Part shown: positions 4,884 to 58,348 of the stretch, piece by piece
Layout of the letters: every line of letters begins with the position of its first letter
How positions within the stretch are numbered: the stretch's first letter is position 1
From: Verrucomicrobiota bacterium
GTDB taxonomy: Bacteria > Verrucomicrobiota > Verrucomicrobiia > Palsa-1439
Assembly: GCA_003152315.1 (NCBI GenBank)
Contig: PLZV01000022.1
Span: forward strand, 1 to 64,000
DNA: 64,000 bases
Direction of reading: 5' to 3'
Translations under genes and position numbers: made by a program
Notes under the pieces: generated by a model
What the model was told of the DNA's origin: nothing
Database searches by the model: none
Seen by the model: the letters and a program-made list of their open reading frames with translations, nothing else

Positions 4884-5652
4884 CGGGCGGTTTCTTCCCG
4901 AGTCAGAAGCCACCGTATCCATCTTCGACCGCGGTTTTCTCTATGGGGATGGAGTCTTCGAGACCATGCGTGTGTATGGCGGCCGCATCTTCCGTGCGCT
5001 CGATCATTTTGACCGACTCTCCGCCGGACTGGAGGCATTGAAGATTCAGTCCCCGTTGACTCAAGAAGAATTGCGGGCTGCCTGTCGCGTCCTCATTGAG
5101 AGAAATGAAGTTGCGGAAGGTGTGGCAAGAGTTTACATCACCCGCGACTCGATCGTAGTGACCGTACGCCCCTACGCGATGCAACCAGTCGAACTACGGG
5201 CGATGATTTCCACAGTTCGGATTGATCCGCGATTGTCCAGGTACAAGACCGCGAATCGTCTCCCGTATCTGCTCGCACAACAGGAGGCAGTGGAGGCGAA
5301 TGTAAACGACGCGGTGCTGCTTAATACGGCCGGCCGCGTCGTCGAGTTTACTACCAGTAATCTATTTGTGGTGAAGGACGATGAATTGTTGACCCCACCG
5401 TTGTCCGACGGACCGTTGCCGGGCGTTACACGCCGAGTGGTGCTGGGATTGGCTGCGGAAAAGCGGATAGCCGTGCGCGAGCACAGTTTTGGGCAGGAAT
5501 TTCTTGAGAAGGTCGACGAGGTCTTCGCGACGAACAGCCTGATGGAAATCAGTTCCGTCGTGACGTGGAGCCGCTGGCCGAAAATAACCTTACGATTGCA
5601 GGACGCCTACCGGGTCTTGGTGGCGAATGAACTTAGTAAGCCCGGGCCATGA
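4855..5652 (+). CDS. pabC: Aminotransferase class IV, probable 4-amino-4-deoxychorismate lyase
   Basis: This 265-residue fold-type IV PLP enzyme has its Schiff-base lysine at K131 in [14 protein letters not shown], and the [10 protein letters not shown] strand and [11 protein letters not shown] cofactor-phosphate region of the family. Family members include branched-chain aminotransferases, D-amino-acid aminotransferases and ADC lyase (PabC), which releases pyruvate from aminodeoxychorismate to give p-aminobenzoate. The choice of PabC rests on the 29-bp overlap with pabB. The 3' end overlaps convergent proS by 20 bp. Confidence 0.82.
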
Positions 5653-22943: not shown

Positions 22944-23117
22944 CATCGAATGCGCACGAAGGCAAGAAGGAAGATGCGTAACTGTGGGAAGTTGGTGGGG
23001 AATGGTGAGTGCGTGACGAACGCAGAAAGGCAGGGGGATAGCTGGCAACCCTGAGGGGAACGCGAACTCCTTGCAGGAAACGCGACAAACGTCGATGTAT
23101 CGGTACGCGATAAATGT

Positions 23118-23405
23118 GCTGGACACGGTGTAATGGGCTAGGTATAGTCGGGACAGTTCTTTGACAAGGGATCACTCTTCGCGAGTCGCTGCGGCGCGAC
23201 AAGTTGGCGCGAACCTGCTTCGTAAGGACGCTACCAAGACCAAGAAAAGGGCACCTATACGTTTCTGCGAAACGAACCCATTTCGTTTTCTCATAGTTGT
23301 TGATGGATCACTTTTCTTCGCAGAGACTTACACGGTTTGCAGCGACGTTTGCAAATGGGTTCGTTCTCCGAAAACGAACCCATTTTGGGAGGTATTTAGG
23401 GGGCA
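23118..23405 (+). ncRNA. Promoter plus boxA-like plus hairpin element, copy A
   Basis: The element is laid out in order. TGGACA (23120-23125), 17 nt and TATAGT (23143-23148) make a near-consensus promoter. GTTCTTTGACA (23156-23166), similar to rRNA-type boxA, starts about where transcription should begin. GTTTCTGCGAAACGAACCCA is at 23261-23280. A perfect 13-bp hairpin has arms AAATGGGTTCGTT (23353-23365) and AACGAACCCATTT (23373-23385). AGGGGGCA is at 23398-23405. A second copy with the same order is at 39434-39839. No convincing ORF and no T-tract terminator are present. It points toward the 3' end of glgA. Whether it is transcribed is inferred from the promoter only. Confidence 0.5.
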
Positions 23406-23443: not shown

Positions 23444-25009
23444 CTATGCCGGGGCAGCCAGTTTCTTCCGCAAGGCGTGCCGGTAGACATCAACGTAGTG
23501 CTGCGCGGAGACGGTCCAATCGAAGTTTTGTGCCATGGCTTGTTGACGCAGTTGGAGAATGTGTTGGGGTCGGTCGAACCAGGTTGCGACGGCCCAGCCG
23601 ATGCAATAGTACAGCGCACGACCGGCGGGTTCCCAGAATTTGAATCCCGTGCCGTTGCCGGTCGCTTCGTCATAATTCTGCACGGTGTCGTCGAGGCCGC
23701 CCGTGGCGCGGACGACGGGCAAGGTGCCATACTTGAGAGAGTAAATCTGGTTGAGTCCGCAGGGCTCGTACAGCGACGGCATGAGGAAGAAATCGCAGCC
23801 GGCTTCGATGAGGTGGCTGAGTTCGGGGGAGAACCCGATGTGCGCGCCGACGCGACCGGGATACGCTCCGGCCAGATAGCGAAAAAAGTTCTCGGTGTCC
23901 ATATCGCCGTTGCCGAGGACGACGAACTGCATGACCATGTTATCGAGAGCGGAGGGGAGCGCCTCGCGCAGGAGGCTGAATCCTTTCTGGTGGACAAAGC
24001 GGCTGACAACACCGAACAGCGGGACATCGGCGCGCTCTTCGAGGTGAAAATGATTTTGAAGCGCGGCCTTGCAGACCGCCTTGCCCCGAAGCGAGTTCGG
24101 GGTGAAGTGCGCGGAAATGGATTTATCGGTCGCGGGATTCCACTGCGAGTAGTCCACACCGTTGAGGATGCCGAAGAGATCGGCGCGGCGATTGTTCAGG
24201 AACATCGCGAGACCCATGCCGCCCACCGGCTCAATGATTTCCTTCGCGTGTGTCGGCGAAACGGTAGTCAACGCATCCGCGAACGAGACGCCCGCCTTGA
24301 GCAAGTTGGCCTTGCCGTGGTCCTCAAACTTATCGGGAGTGAAGTGTTCCGCGCCCAGGCCAAGATACGGCATGACGTTCGCGTTGTAGACGCCCTGATA
24401 GCCGATATTGTGGATCGTCAGCACGCTGGCTGTGTTCGACAGTGGCGAGAGCACCCGGTCCCAAGTTTTCAGAAACACCGGCAGGGTGGCGGTCGGCCAG
24501 TCATGGGCATGCATGATGTGCGGGATGAAATTCTGGTCCTTGCAAATCTGCAGGGCGGCCTTCGACAACAACGCGAAGCGAAACGCGTTGTCCATATAAT
24601 GGCCCGTCGGCCCGTCGTAGATGCCCGGCCGCCCGAAGTAGGCGTCGAATTCGACGAACCACACCGGCACTTCCCCGTCGAGGAGGGCGGTATGCAACCC
24701 GATCCAATGTTCCATGCCGGCGCCCATGTGCACACAGGCGGGGCCGACGAACTTGATGCCGTACAGGGCGCGGTCGATAAGCGAATACAAGGGGATGATG
24801 ATGCGCACGTCGTGGCCCAGCCGCCGCAACGCCTTCGACAAGCCGCCAACCACGTCGGCGAGGCCGCCGACCTTCGCAAACGGCACGCACTCGGACGAGA
24901 CGAAGAGGATCTTCAATCCATCCTCGTGCTCACCGTTCGTCGGGGGCGGATTCCGCGCCGCGGGTTCTTGGCGCGGCACTGGTGTTCTGATTTTTGCTAC
25001 AGGGGGCAT
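23444..25009 (-). CDS. glgA: Glycogen synthase (ADP-glucose type, GT5)
   Basis: This 521-residue GT-B glycosyltransferase extends alpha-1,4-glucan chains from ADP-glucose. The family N-terminal motif KVGGLADVVGGL follows KILFVSSECVPFA, and the C-terminal donor-site region has PSLYEPCGLNQIYSLKYGTLPVVRATGGLDDTV with the conserved glutamate. The start is uncertain: ATG 25009 adds a Pro-rich tail of about 30 residues; a start at 25123 would overlap the divergent transporter. No glgB, glgC or glgP is nearby, so glycogen genes are scattered in this genome. Confidence 0.93.
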   Translation of the reverse strand: MPPVAKIRTPVPRQEPAARNPPPTNGEHEDGLKILFVSSECVPFAKVGGLADVVGGLSKALRRLGHDVRIIIPLYSLIDRALYGIKFVGPACVHMGAGMEHWIGLHTALLDGEVPVWFVEFDAYFGRPGIYDGPTGHYMDNAFRFALLSKAALQICKDQNFIPHIMHAHDWPTATLPVFLKTWDRVLSPLSNTASVLTIHNIGYQGVYNANVMPYLGLGAEHFTPDKFEDHGKANLLKAGVSFADALTTVSPTHAKEIIEPVGGMGLAMFLNNRRADLFGILNGVDYSQWNPATDKSISAHFTPNSLRGKAVCKAALQNHFHLEERADVPLFGVVSRFVHQKGFSLLREALPSALDNMVMQFVVLGNGDMDTENFFRYLAGAYPGRVGAHIGFSPELSHLIEAGCDFFLMPSLYEPCGLNQIYSLKYGTLPVVRATGGLDDTVQNYDEATGNGTGFKFWEPAGRALYYCIGWAVATWFDRPQHILQLRQQAMAQNFDWTVSAQHYVDVYRHALRKKLAAPA

Positions 25010-25081
25010 CCGGAGCGGGAGTGTAACAGGGCACCGAAGCGCCCGCAAGCATCGGGCTGGACGGGCCCGAGGAGACGATGA

Positions 25082-26071
25082 ATGAGTTGCCGCGCGTGGC
25101 ATATATCCGCTAGCCTCCCGCACGTGGAGGAGCGCAAACGACTACGGGCGGTCTGGATGCTCTTGCTGGCGACAGTCTGCTGGGGGATGAGTTTCCCGTT
25201 GATGAAAGGGCTGGTCCTGCTGCAAGAGCACTTGCTGCCCGATGCGAACGTGTGGTTCATCACGGCACAGACGTCGACGGTGCGCTTTGCGCTCGCGGCC
25301 ATTGTGCTGGCGCTAATCTGCGCGCGGCGCATGCGAGGATTCACGCGGCTCGACCTGAAACTTGGCGTGGGGCTCGGGTTCTTCGCGGGAACCGGCACCC
25401 TGCTGCAGATGGCGGCGCTGAGCCAGACGCTCGCGTCCACATCGGCGTTTCTGACACAATTCTATGTGCTGCTGCTGCCGTTATGGGTGGTGTTGTGGCA
25501 GCGCCGCCGGCCATCGTTGCTACTGTGCTTTTGTTGCGCCCTCGTAGTCGCGGGCATGGGGGTGCTGTGCGGTCTGCGGTGGAATGATTGGAAACTCGGG
25601 CGGGGTGAATGGCTGACGTTGCTGGCTGCGGTATTGTTCACGGGTGACATCCTGTGGCTCGACCATCGTGAATTCGCGTCCGCCGACAAGGTGCGAGCAA
25701 CGGTGGCAATGTTTGCGTCGATGGCCATCATCCTCTTGCCCGTGGCCATCTGGCAGGCGCCAGTGCAGGGTGACTGGTGGCGCGTTTATCTTTCGCCTGG
25801 CATGTCCGTGATGTTGCTCGCGCTGCTGGGCGCCTCCACGCTGGTGGCCTACACGCTGATGAATGTGTGGCAACCGCACCTGCAACCGACGCACGCGGGC
25901 CTGATCTATTGCGCCGAGCCGGTGTTCGCGAGTCTGTACGCGCTATTTACGCCCGCGCTCCTGGCGCACCTAGGCGCGTTTACCTACGCGAACGAATCGG
26001 TGACGGGGAACCTGTTTGTGGGCGGCGCGTTGATCACGCTGGCCAACGTCCTCGTGCAATATGACCGCTGA
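25082..26071 (+). CDS. EamA/DMT-superfamily transporter
   Basis: This 329-residue membrane protein has about ten TM helices in two EamA repeats. The first begins VWMLLLATVCWGMSFPLMKG; the second begins around LGRGEWLTLLAAVLFTGDILWL. The C-terminal repeat has AGLIYCAEPVFASLYA, matching the A-x-x-x-x-x-E-P signature typical of RhaT/YdcZ-type exporters. Substrates in this family range from amino acids to nucleotides and cannot be predicted. GAGGAG just upstream supports ATG 25082. It is divergent from glgA with overlapping 5' regions. Confidence 0.88.
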   Translation: MSCRAWHISASLPHVEERKRLRAVWMLLLATVCWGMSFPLMKGLVLLQEHLLPDANVWFITAQTSTVRFALAAIVLALICARRMRGFTRLDLKLGVGLGFFAGTGTLLQMAALSQTLASTSAFLTQFYVLLLPLWVVLWQRRRPSLLLCFCCALVVAGMGVLCGLRWNDWKLGRGEWLTLLAAVLFTGDILWLDHREFASADKVRATVAMFASMAIILLPVAIWQAPVQGDWWRVYLSPGMSVMLLALLGASTLVAYTLMNVWQPHLQPTHAGLIYCAEPVFASLYALFTPALLAHLGAFTYANESVTGNLFVGGALITLANVLVQYDR

Positions 26072-39433: not shown

Positions 39434-39839
39434 CACTGGACAGCGTGATGTGAGAGGGGTATAGTCGAGGCGGTTCTTTGACAGCCTACTTCGCGAGGAC
39501 GCTTCCTCCGTCGCTAAAGCTATGGAGGACGTGACGAAGGCCAAGTAAGGGAAAGAAGGAAAGCGGGAAGCGCAGAGCGGAAAGGTTGAAAGCGAAAGGA
39601 CGAATCCGCCTTCACTAAAGCTTCGGCGCGATACTTGGGGCGGAGCTATGCGGGGAAAAAGTCTCTTGTGTAAAATCGAGGGTTCACAAAACATGGTTTC
39701 TGCGAAACGAACCCACCGTTTTGTGAGCGCTGTTTTGATGTAAGCACCTATGAATAGAAGTGTTGCGGCGGAATGTTACGGAAAAAATCGGTGGGTTCGT
39801 TTTGGAAAACGAACCCACCGGAGGCCACAAGAGGGGGCA
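39434..39839 (+). ncRNA. Promoter plus boxA-like plus hairpin element, copy B
   Basis: The order is the same as in copy A. TGGACA (39437-39442), 17 nt and TATAGT (39460-39465) form the promoter. GTTCTTTGACA is at 39473-39483, again 7 nt after the -10. GTTTCTGCGAAACGAACCCA is at 39696-39715. A perfect 13-bp hairpin has arms CGGTGGGTTCGTT (39789-39801) and AACGAACCCACCG (39808-39820). AGGGGGCA is at 39832-39839. It is about 118 nt longer than copy A because two CTAAAG-loop hairpins lie in the middle. No convincing ORF is inside. The AsmA-like gene starts 245 nt downstream on the same strand. Confidence 0.5.
39503..39628 (+). repeat. Two CTAAAG-centred hairpins inside element B
   Basis: TCCTCCGTCGCTAAAGC followed by TATGGAGGA (39504-39529) folds as TCCTCC/GGAGGA plus GC/GC around TAAA. 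CGCCTTCACTAAAGCTTC followed by GGCG (39607-39628) is a second, weaker version. Both share the (C)CTAAAGCT core and are absent from element A, so they look like a separate insertion family. Confidence 0.45.
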
Positions 39840-40084
39840 TTTTGAGCGTCGGAGGGCCAGATTTTGGGTTCGTTTGTTGCAGAAGCACAGCGCGCGCGGT
39901 GTCATCAGACTCGGCTCGTCTGGCTCGGCTCCGTCAGATTCGGCCTGCAGCCAGGAGAAGACTTTGGCCGGGATGAAGTTCTCCGACAGGCGCGTGGGAA
40001 ACGGGGTAAGTTTTCTGTGAGATACTGATGGGCACCGGGAATCACGTTGACGGGCCGAGACGGTACGATTAAGAATCACGCGTC

Positions 40085-42421
40085 GTGAAATTCCTGTACA
40101 GGCTTTTTGTTCGCTTGCTGATGCTGGTGGTGCTTCTCTTAGTACTGTCACTCGGCTACCTGCACTTCTACGGTTTCCCCGATCGTCTCAAGCAGCTTCT
40201 TCTGAGTGAGTTGAATCGGGTGGGCTATGCCGCCCAGTTCACCTCGATTCGCCTCGACCTCTTTCGCGGGGTTGTGGCCACCGATGCGACGTTTGCGGAC
40301 GCGAAGACGCCCGATCAACCGCTGGCGCAAATCGACGAGTTGGAAATGCAGTTCAGCGTGAAGCGTCTTCTCCACAAGCAGCCCTTCATCCGTGCCATCC
40401 ATATCGCCAACGCAGTTATTGCCATACCCACGCCTCCGGATGAGAACGGCCCGGCCAAGTTTACGGCAAAAGATGCATACGCCACTTTCAAATTTGAAGA
40501 TGACGGCTCGATTCGGGTGGATCGGCTTACGGGTGTTTACTGCGGGATTCGCTTGAACGTCTCGGGGCGCATCAAACCCCGTTCGGCCTTCAGGACAACG
40601 GCAACCCCAGCCACGGCAAATGTTCTCACGGGTGGAGGACAGTTTCTCTTCCTCACCAAGGCCGTGCGCGAGTTGAACCAGATTCAGGTCACGCTCCCGC
40701 CGCAGCTCGACCTGGATTTTGACCTCGATTTGGCGCAACCTCTCGCGGGGCATGTCCTGGCGAAGTTGCGCGGCAACCAGCTTCAGTATCGCAACCTGCA
40801 GCTTGACTCGGCGGGCGTGGATATTGAGATGAGCGGCGGCGCGATCGAGGTGCGTCGCTGCGAAGCCTCGCTGTACGGCGGCGAAATCGACATTCATGGC
40901 CGCTATGACCTCGCCATGGGACAGTTCGATATGGCGTTGTCCAGTACGACCGATCCTGCAGCCATCGTTCCGTTGTTCATCAAGGAGGCCGGGCCAATAC
41001 TGCGCGATCTCCATGTCGAGGAGAATCCAAAGATCCTGGCGCGCTACCGGCTGAGTCCTGAGACAGGGAGCCTGCCCGAGTTGACGGGCACCGTGCAAAC
41101 CGGAGGGCTGGCCATTCGGGGTGTCGAATTTCGCTCGATCAAGTTTGCCTTTGAAGACCGCGGCCCGCAGGTCAAGTTTAACGGCGTCGAAATCGTCACG
41201 CCGGAAGGTCGGCTGGACGGCCATGGTGAATACCACATCGAGAGCACCGATTTTGCCTACGAGTTCGATAGTACACTCGACCCGACGAAGCTCCAGCCAT
41301 TGATGACCAACTACGTGCGGCAGATCGTCGAGCCAGCGTGGTTCGAAACACCGCCGCACATTGTCGCGAAAGTCAGCGGCGATTTTGTCGATCCGGATGC
41401 GCTTGCGTACGATGCCCGCCTCGACGCTCACCGCTGCAGCTATCGTGGCGTTGGACTCGAAGGCGCGTCGGCGAGGTTGCGTCTCCGCGAGAGCCGGCTC
41501 GATGTGCGGGATTTGCGGCTGGAGCGGCGGGAGGGCGATGTCCGCGGCACGTTGTTTGCCGACTTCAACCGTCATCGCGTCAACTTCGATCTGGCGGCCC
41601 GGGCGAACCCCTCGGAAATCGCCGGTTTGCTGGGTGAGAAGGCGGTGAAGACGATGACGCCCTACCGGTTTGGCCCGCGCACCGATGCGAACGCACGTGG
41701 TGTAATCGATTTCGACAAACCTGAGGGCACACTTTGGGCCGCACACGTCGTCAACGAGGGTTTCTCGTACTGGAAGTTCACTGCCGACCGGGCACAGGCA
41801 ACGCTTGTGTTCACGAACAACACCATGCAAATCAATGGTTTTGACGCGGATTTCTACAGCGGTAGACTGCGGGGCCACGCCGGCTTTATCTTCTCGGATA
41901 CCGATCCATCGTATAACTTCGAGTTCTCGGTCGATCGTGCGGACGTGCGCAACCTGCTCAGCGCGGTTGAGGACCGCGAGAGCACCGTCACCGGGTTGCT
42001 GACCGGTCAGGCGACGATCGACGGGCGCGGGACCGATTTGGGCGCGCTGAGTGGGAAGGGGCAACTCAACGTGGCGGATGGCATCCTCTGGCAGGCTCCT
42101 GTCTTTGGCATTTTCTCGGAGGTCCTTGGCAAGACCAAGGCGACGCGCGCACAGGCCTCGTTCACCATCACCAATCAGGCCGTGAGCACGGAAGACATGC
42201 AAATCGCCGCCGGCGCGTTCACCGCCCAGAGTCGCGGCCAGCTTGGTTTCGACGGCAAGCTGGATTTCCGAGTCGAGGCCCAGTTCCTGCGCGCGTGGCC
42301 CGGCATTGGGTGGATTTCACCACTCATCGGCAAGCTTCTCGAATACAAAGTCGGTGGCACAATCGGCGATCCGAAGTATCGCCCGGTCAACCTGCCAAAA
42401 GAATTGCTGCCGAACCGGTGA
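40085..42421 (+). CDS. AsmA/TamB-like envelope protein
   Basis: This 778-residue protein has an N-terminal TM anchor (about 6-27, LLMLVVLLLVLSLGYL) followed by a long beta-rich periplasmic region with the AsmA pattern of repeated short beta strands (LPELTGTVQTGGLAIRGVEF; GVIDFDKPEGTLWA; GRGTDLGALSGKGQLNVADG). The AsmA_2-type C-terminus FRVEAQFLRAWPGIGWISPLIGKLLEYKVGGTIGDPKYRP is clear. Family members are bridge-like lipid-transfer or outer-membrane assembly factors. It starts at GTG 40085. TTGACG (40047) upstream is a weak promoter candidate. Confidence 0.85.
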   Translation: MKFLYRLFVRLLMLVVLLLVLSLGYLHFYGFPDRLKQLLLSELNRVGYAAQFTSIRLDLFRGVVATDATFADAKTPDQPLAQIDELEMQFSVKRLLHKQPFIRAIHIANAVIAIPTPPDENGPAKFTAKDAYATFKFEDDGSIRVDRLTGVYCGIRLNVSGRIKPRSAFRTTATPATANVLTGGGQFLFLTKAVRELNQIQVTLPPQLDLDFDLDLAQPLAGHVLAKLRGNQLQYRNLQLDSAGVDIEMSGGAIEVRRCEASLYGGEIDIHGRYDLAMGQFDMALSSTTDPAAIVPLFIKEAGPILRDLHVEENPKILARYRLSPETGSLPELTGTVQTGGLAIRGVEFRSIKFAFEDRGPQVKFNGVEIVTPEGRLDGHGEYHIESTDFAYEFDSTLDPTKLQPLMTNYVRQIVEPAWFETPPHIVAKVSGDFVDPDALAYDARLDAHRCSYRGVGLEGASARLRLRESRLDVRDLRLERREGDVRGTLFADFNRHRVNFDLAARANPSEIAGLLGEKAVKTMTPYRFGPRTDANARGVIDFDKPEGTLWAAHVVNEGFSYWKFTADRAQATLVFTNNTMQINGFDADFYSGRLRGHAGFIFSDTDPSYNFEFSVDRADVRNLLSAVEDRESTVTGLLTGQATIDGRGTDLGALSGKGQLNVADGILWQAPVFGIFSEVLGKTKATRAQASFTITNQAVSTEDMQIAAGAFTAQSRGQLGFDGKLDFRVEAQFLRAWPGIGWISPLIGKLLEYKVGGTIGDPKYRPVNLPKELLPNR

Positions 42422-57778: not shown

Positions 57779-58348
57779 TCAGAAGTCGTCGGGGACTGTA
57801 AGTTGGTCGCTTTTGAAGGTGTAGACCATTTTCACTGTCGCTGGCGGGCATGTGCGCTCGAACCATGCGGCGGAGCACCACCGGTATTGATTTGCCACCG
57901 GCGCGAGTTGATGGTGTACGGGATTCTGATGGACATAGTTGAGCCGCGCAAGGTAGGAGCGTTCAAATGTCAGGCGAGTATCCCAAAAGTTGTGCCATAC
58001 CTTACGGACGGGCTCGTTGTTCAGCTTGTTTATCTTGCGTGCAGTATCGGCATGAAGATGCGTGATGAATTCTCGTAATGACTCAGCATTCGCCGGCGAT
58101 CTTCCGACGAAGTGGTAATGATTGCTGAATACCGCCCACGCTTCCAGTTGCCAGCCGTATTGTTTGGCCAAGCGCAAGAGTGTTGATTCGAGAACGTCGA
58201 GCGCGTCATCGCCTCGAAAGAAGTGGTCCTTGTGATACGTTCCGGCCGTGACCATGTAGACGCCTGCTTCGGACAGCCGGTGAACAGGTGCATGCGGCCA
58301 ATCTTTGGAGCGCGGCGACCTGTTGCCGTTTTCTTGTTCCTCATCCAT
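57779..58348 (-). CDS. REP-associated tyrosine transposase (RAYT, Y1_Tnp)
   Basis: This 189-residue IS200/IS605-like single-strand transposase has the HUH pair H77-x-H79 in NHYHFVGRSP and a catalytic tyrosine Y138 in LNYVHQNPVHH. RAYTs are single-copy, non-IS transposases thought to spread REP palindromes. Four REP copies surround it: 1 and 2 beyond its 3' end, 4 just upstream, and 3 inside the first codons. ATG 58348 is preferred; the longer frame would use a TTG that is itself the head of REP 4. Residues 7-15 (NGNRSPRSK) are the translation of REP 3. Confidence 0.87.
   Translation of the reverse strand: MDEEQENGNRSPRSKDWPHAPVHRLSEAGVYMVTAGTYHKDHFFRGDDALDVLESTLLRLAKQYGWQLEAWAVFSNHYHFVGRSPANAESLREFITHLHADTARKINKLNNEPVRKVWHNFWDTRLTFERSYLARLNYVHQNPVHHQLAPVANQYRWCSAAWFERTCPPATVKMVYTFKSDQLTVPDDF
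58304..58330 (+). repeat. REP palindrome 3, inside the RAYT coding start
   Basis: CGGCGAC (58313-58319), loop CT, and GTTGCCG (58322-58328) form a 7-bp stem with one G-T pair, preceded by TTTGGAGCG. It is read in frame by the RAYT gene. Confidence 0.7.

Follow-up and report, generated by a model that had tools for sequence, protein, structure and literature searches.

A dispersed inverted-repeat family with predicted promoters and subfamily tags, found in one Verrucomicrobiota genus

Promoters, and RNase III binding or cleavage next to genes, have been reported for the Correia repeat enclosed elements (CREE/NEMIS) of Neisseria (PMC2649163). REP/REPIN sequences consist of many palindromic intergenic copies and include subfamilies with alternative complementary residues in the stem (PMC3733652), and the BOX and RUP repeats of Streptococcus pneumoniae are small interspersed intergenic repeats, some of which are transcribed (PMC3049150). 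Reports on replication template switching describe it as homogenising the arms of inverted repeats and as generating and preserving hairpins (PMC8604942, PMC8794818). Here we describe a repeat unit that is present at two loci, A and B, in a 64,000-nucleotide stretch of a Verrucomicrobiota genome (positions 1 to 64,000 of contig PLZV01000022.1; the window), and at many other places in the same genome (G000) and in two further species (G001 and G002). The unit has inverted-repeat ends that enclose a core of fixed length, which is the arrangement of a miniature inverted-repeat element of the Correia/NEMIS type.

At both window loci a 13-mer, made up of AACGAACCCA and a following triplet, occurs in three copies (forward, inverted and forward) that carry one triplet per locus (Table 1). 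The 10-mer itself was found 7 times in the window compared with 0.10 expected, a count that no shuffle reached, and 272 times in the genome compared with 10 for a reversed control pattern. The palindrome TGGGTTCGTT-N3..12-AACGAACCCA occupies 71 places in the genome and the control pattern none. An earlier note on this DNA had described tagged, complementary hairpins at both loci; the coordinates and the excess of the 10-mer over shuffles and control bear this out. A fourth, isolated inverted copy of the 10-mer at locus B had been overlooked. Only about 14% of loci have a motif copy in the corresponding area.

Table 1. Positions of the repeat copies, predicted promoters and adjoining genes at loci A and B of the window
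Feature	Position	Strand	Sequence or remark
Locus A promoter	23120-23148	+	TGGACA-N17-TATAGT
Locus A copy 1	23271-23283	+	AACGAACCCATTT = AACGAACCCA+TTT
Locus A copy 2	23353-23365	- (inverted)	AAATGGGTTCGTT = AAA+TGGGTTCGTT
Locus A copy 3	23373-23385	+	AACGAACCCATTT = AACGAACCCA+TTT
Convergent glycogen/starch synthase gene adjoining locus A	23444-25123	-	Pfam PF08323, E 5.6e-75
Locus B promoter	39437-39465	+	TGGACA-N17-TATAGT
Locus B outer inverted repeat, left half	39663-39670	+	CTCTTGTG; confined to the subclass of locus B
Locus B conserved left flank	39690-39705	+	AACATGGTTTCTGCGA; alignment and family logos
Locus B copy 1	39706-39718	+	AACGAACCCACCG = AACGAACCCA+CCG
Locus B interior, 70 bp	39719-39788	+	Weak shared motif ..TGTAA..//..GTTGC.. 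in family logos
Locus B copy 2	39789-39801	- (inverted)	CGGTGGGTTCGTT = CGG+TGGGTTCGTT
Locus B copy 3	39808-39820	+	AACGAACCCACCG = AACGAACCCA+CCG
Locus B outer inverted repeat, right half	39826-39833	+	CACAAGAG
Locus B fourth, isolated inverted 10-mer copy	39865-39874	-	Tag AAA (read on the + motif) compared with CCG: mismatch
Gene downstream of locus B, co-directional, AsmA family	40085-42421	+	Pfam PF05170, E 7.9e-13

In a typical unit a predicted promoter (TGGACA-N17-TATRRT) is followed by a leader of roughly 80-280 nt and then by an element of 95-98 bp, which is bounded by an 11-18 bp inverted repeat. The element, counted from the first base of copy 1 through the last of copy 2, spans 95-98 bp in all collected entries from the three species; this collection includes some elements from both strands, and counts taken from it are therefore upper limits. 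A set of 84 palindrome loci was collected and oriented, 49 from this genome and 35 from the sister species G002. In these loci copies 1 and 2 are 85-88 bp apart and are followed by a centre of 6-7 bp and then by copy 3.

A covariance model built from copy 1, the interior, copy 2 and copy 3 gave at least 150 matches in G000 (some near-palindromes match on both strands), about 118 in G002 and 64 in G001; eight genomes from other genera in the same family had no match. A pattern search returned 107 matches in this genome and none in 386 other sampled genomes of the phylum. We conclude that this genome contains at least 100 units and that the family is restricted to one genus among the genomes searched. 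Palindrome hits were also present in four other records, two of them without a model match; the one strong match (L088; PMAF01000280.1, about 5400-5600) is a single perfect unit in a Hyphomicrobiales MAG scaffold, adjoining N-gaps and a perfect palindrome, and the bin contains no further unit. The scaffold is probably chimeric, stray or mis-binned and derived from a relative of this genus. Rfam gave no match in the window at gathering score, and the search of seven unit loci returned a single chance-level hit far under the gathering score of its family. The repeat family is apparently undescribed.

Promoters near the loci were sought as TGGACA-N17-TATRRT with at most one mismatch. A predicted promoter lay upstream on the same strand at 54 of 104 G000 loci, with one on the reverse strand and one downstream, and at 28 of 45 G002 loci; the two species had 1-2 on the reverse strand and 1 downstream. 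The exact pattern has 65 matches in the G000 genome and 0-2 in other genera. A known element follows within 500 bp downstream of 34 of these 65 matches, and an antisense element follows none. Of the remaining matches, 20 were inspected: 15 have an element with different arms where one would be expected, two (L239, L255) have an element farther off and three (L241, L246, L253) have no recognised element. Some detected units have no exact promoter match. From the sequence we infer that these sites have promoter activity.

Genes were called by codon score, without annotation. The downstream gene was on the same strand as the unit at 69 of 82 loci, about six standard deviations from one half by hand calculation, and on the opposite strand at 13 (about 16% convergent), while the corresponding counts for the upstream gene were 23 and 22. 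The position of a riboswitch or attenuator, in the leader of a co-directional gene, is thus that of most units. Because of this bias in direction, the units are likely to exert a regulatory action on the downstream gene. No functional relatedness was found among the downstream genes, which include rpoN and genes for a TPP enzyme, gcvT, RtcB, SppA, T2SSE, a DEAD helicase, GDE and a U32 peptidase. Locus A faces the 3' end of the glycogen synthase gene, and a unit is present there in equal orientation in all three species (L220, L158).

Other sequences recur around the units. A palindrome, ATCGTA..CGATA (TGGACATCGTATTCCGATAGTGGTATGAT), is placed either ahead of TGGACA or between the two promoter hexamers at L055, L062 and L243 and at about 23100-23118 of the window; it looks like a putative operator for a repressor or activator. 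Further dispersed intergenic repeats (GGTTGCCGCGA..GACTCGG, CCGCCTTCGCCAAGGCTACGGCGCGACTCGCTG and GACGGCTGGGCCAGCCGTC) occur at L032, L033, L044, L059, in many leaders and at about 39480-39560 of the window. The leader varies in length partly because such repeats lie within or beside units.

The triplets were compared in 83 loci from two species, with 5000 shuffles giving the chance level. All three triplets were equal in 53 loci, compared with a shuffled mean of 9.6 and a shuffle maximum of 22. By pairs, copies 1 and 2 agreed in 61 loci, copies 1 and 3 in 66 and copies 2 and 3 in 56. At least one mismatch was present in 30 loci, mostly in the form of whole other tags that make the locus a mosaic (e.g. 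CCG/CCG/ATT or ATT/CCG/ATT). Pairing and identity of the copies extended over exactly 13 bp and then ended, with 1:2 pairing at the next position in 11%. Tag agreement within loci is far above chance and is not strict. The earlier proposal that every locus has three matched copies therefore describes a strong tendency but not a rule, and the within-locus comparison of triplets that had been put forward to check it yielded agreement above shuffles together with 30 non-matching loci. Selection for RNA pairing of the tag, which had also been suggested, left no signature, i.e. only 1 of 25 tag mismatches between copies 1 and 2 and 6 of 39 between copies 2 and 3 were G-U, not above random.

The arms in G001 differ from those at the window loci (AACGAAGCCA, AACAAAGCCA and AACAAACCCA), and further arm families were present inside G000 (AACGAACCCGAAT, AACGAACCGGATT and AACGAAGCCATTTGT); copies 1 and 2 are complementary in each. 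Subfamilies and species are distinguished by their arm and tag sequences. The claim that complementarity of copies 1 and 2 has been kept is well supported, as arms with several different sequences show this internal complementarity in G000, G001 and G002 alike. Copies 1 and 2 are found throughout the family, whereas copy 3 is not. It has the forward orientation in 99% of the AACGAACCCA families; the AACGAACCCG/AACGAACCGG (CCCG/CCGG) families lack it, and 91% of the G001 set have it inverted. Switching between 1:2 and 2:3 pairing therefore cannot be a shared general function, and on paper the mutually exclusive folds that had been envisaged could form only in the AACGAACCCA families. At four G001 loci (L146, L152, L158, L165) the inverted copy 3 has a longer match to copy 1 than copy 2 has; the perfect inverted repeat at these loci is therefore 1:3.

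An outer repeat characterises one subclass. Of 10 loci with CCACAA on the downstream side, 9 have CTTGTG upstream, compared with 0 of 74 others (p=3e-11), and the subclass (CTTGTGG/CCACAAG) comprises ten loci, including locus B, with differing tags. A general outer stem (CCCC/GGGG) was rejected, its complementarity being no higher than in permuted loci, and long terminal inverted repeats of 34 bp proved to be an artefact of reading both strands.

RNAalifold selected the 2:3 hairpin, in which the three tag pairs were the only pairs that varied. Covariation in the stem formed by copies 1 and 2 (P1) amounted to 36 cells compared with 14.1 after shuffling. As the loci in this set had been selected for exact matches to copies 2 and 3, its ten inner pairs could not vary; the different arm families constitute independent evidence for pairing. 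No covarying pairs were found outside the arms, and folding of the interior on both strands gave z-scores of about 0 relative to shuffled sequence, i.e. no excess structure. A structured-RNA interior was rejected on these grounds; the structured aptamer or interior helices expected of a riboswitch or attenuator were not found in the unit. A short coding sequence spanning the element was likewise rejected, as the reading frame is not kept because element lengths differ by single bases. Stop-free frames were commoner than with a shuffled interior, but the excess extended across all three forward frames and was therefore not read as coding.

About 22 of about 43 G002 loci have a neighbouring gene in common with a G000 locus, usually in the same relative direction. 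Six further G002 loci were probed through their downstream gene; in G000, three of these positions have a unit whose arms differ and three have no unit. At conserved gene positions the sister species often has different arms and tags, and these tags are internally matched. Among 25 position-matched pairs, the counterpart interior was the best match in only 2, and several ranked near the bottom. At locus A the leaders of G000 and G002 are 79% alike and the interiors 49%, which is under the 60% background, and length, arm and tags differ together. The leader was recognisably conserved in 4 of 21 G000-G002 pairs, and because intergenic DNA diverges fast, the interior turnover in many pairs could be ordinary divergence. 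In-place replacement is shown at locus A, the sole clean case, and is only plausible elsewhere. No clean empty site, target-site duplication or responsible transposase was found for the units, and for this reason past mobility is something that we infer; at three G000 sites without a unit the flanks were too diverged to align at the insertion boundary. In several cases (L266-L270, L273) a Y1_Tnp (PF01797) gene or gene fragment is no more than about 1.1 kb from a unit. The window contains a Y1_Tnp (PF01797) fragment at 57974-58234 on the reverse strand, with no unit beside it.

One explanation of these results is a cis-acting RNA switch in the 5' leader, in which copy 2 would pair either with copy 1 (a long-loop stem) or with copy 3 (a short hairpin) and thereby control downstream transcription or translation, the tags being kept by selection for pairing. 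The dedicated upstream promoter, the 69 co-directional genes as against 13, the compensated arm families in three species and the P1 covariation are consistent with such a switch. However, the AACGAACCCG/AACGAACCGG families lack copy 3 and G001 has it inverted, tag agreement is lowest for the 2:3 pair that would form the short hairpin, and G-U pairs are as scarce among the tag mismatches as described above. As the interior shows no excess structure on either strand, the downstream genes are functionally unrelated and the gene faced by about 16% of units is convergent, we consider this explanation unlikely. A REP/REPIN-like palindrome moved by a RAYT-type Y1 (HUH) transposase appears improbable to us. 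Y1_Tnp matches number 11 in G000, 3 in G001 and 1 in G002, and several of the genes are close to a unit, but no recognised unit lies within about 1.5 kb of either of two intact Y1_Tnp genes (L271, L272), and genera without the element also carry Y1_Tnp. The span of 95-98 bp and the unit's own promoter are also unlike a short REP stem (PMC3733652), and a terminal GTAG/CGTC tag on a short stem was not found in the flanks, the left flank being NATNYGTTTCTGCGA and the right flanks having no conserved tag.

The joint change of arms and tags might also be a mutational by-product, in which template switching during replication between the inverted arms corrects imperfect palindromes without selection. 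This mechanism has been reported for inverted-repeat arms (PMC8604942, PMC8794818), and mismatched loci differ by whole triplets rather than single bases. It predicts the highest agreement in the nearest pair, 2:3, yet agreement there was the lowest (56, compared with 61 for 1:2 and 66 for 1:3). It also predicts spacer inversions, of which none was clearly seen in a list that held some strand duplicates, and it leaves unexplained both the invariant genome-wide 10-mer and the sharp end of agreement at 13 bp; we judge it improbable as the main cause. The sharp limit at exactly 13 bp would be expected if the arms around the 6-7 bp centre were sites for DNA binding or recombination, with the tag read by a protein for specificity, and the invariant core in many loci, the fixed spacing and the species-specific arms point the same way. 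Against such sites, inverted interiors were again not clearly seen, copy 3 is optional and no candidate protein was identified, and we regard this reading as very improbable. A somewhat less doubtful, still clearly unlikely proposal is that the units are more than 100 promoter-driven leader elements forming one set across the genus, and that their 13-mer, tag included, would be a specificity code for a trans-acting factor, the arms and tags of each subfamily changing in concert with that factor.

We favour, at about an even chance of being right, a dispersed and partly domesticated inverted repeat that carries a promoter, is Correia-like and undergoes block exchange among its members. One ancestral promoter-plus-hairpin repeat would have dispersed, with all units descending from it, and units would have been retained mainly where they read into a gene, so as to be now partly domesticated in the 5' leader. 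Agreement of tags within a locus would reflect mainly joint inheritance of the copies and their replacement in blocks, through recombination or gene conversion that joins members at the invariant 10-mers, perhaps with help from template switching between the inverted arms. Once transcribed, the 1:2 stem or the 2:3 hairpin would be double-stranded and could influence processing or elongation ahead of the gene, an effect that has been reported for Correia elements. The matching tags look mainly like markers of subfamilies, passed on and exchanged block by block, and not like proof of a finely tuned RNA switch. Among the processes raised in the earlier note, copying or exchange is the best supported, by the mosaic loci and by sister species with different, internally matched tags. 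A dispersed repeat with block exchange is the simplest account that covers the promoter, the fixed length, the restriction to one genus, the direction bias, the shared positions, the subfamily tags and the mosaics.

The family occupies the leaders of more than 100 genes in one lineage, with position conserved and content exchanged. It provides a natural test of the homogenisation of dispersed repeats in bacteria, and also of whether changes that look compensatory always mean selection on RNA structure. If the units set the expression of their genes, much of the regulation in this genus would operate through one repeat family.

Like BOX and RUP, the unit is a small interspersed intergenic repeat of one lineage. 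BOX and RUP differ from it in sequence and module arrangement and are set apart by description. With attenuators and riboswitches that have exclusive stems it has in common a promoter-proximal leader and, in the AACGAACCCA families only, one strand that can pair with either of two others; unlike them, it has no conserved interior structure, unrelated genes downstream and a third strand that is not family-wide. REP/REPIN sequences are similar in their many palindromic intergenic copies and in subfamilies with alternative complementary stems, whereas the unit described here has a longer span, invariant 10-mer arms, a dedicated promoter and no consistent RAYT linkage. The unit is like CREE/NEMIS in being a high-copy intergenic element with inverted-repeat ends and a conserved core (PMC2649163), a likeness judged by description. 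It is unlike CREE/NEMIS in that its promoter lies outside the repeat, in most cases by 109-310 bp, and in its strong bias toward the downstream gene, its third copy and its locus tags.
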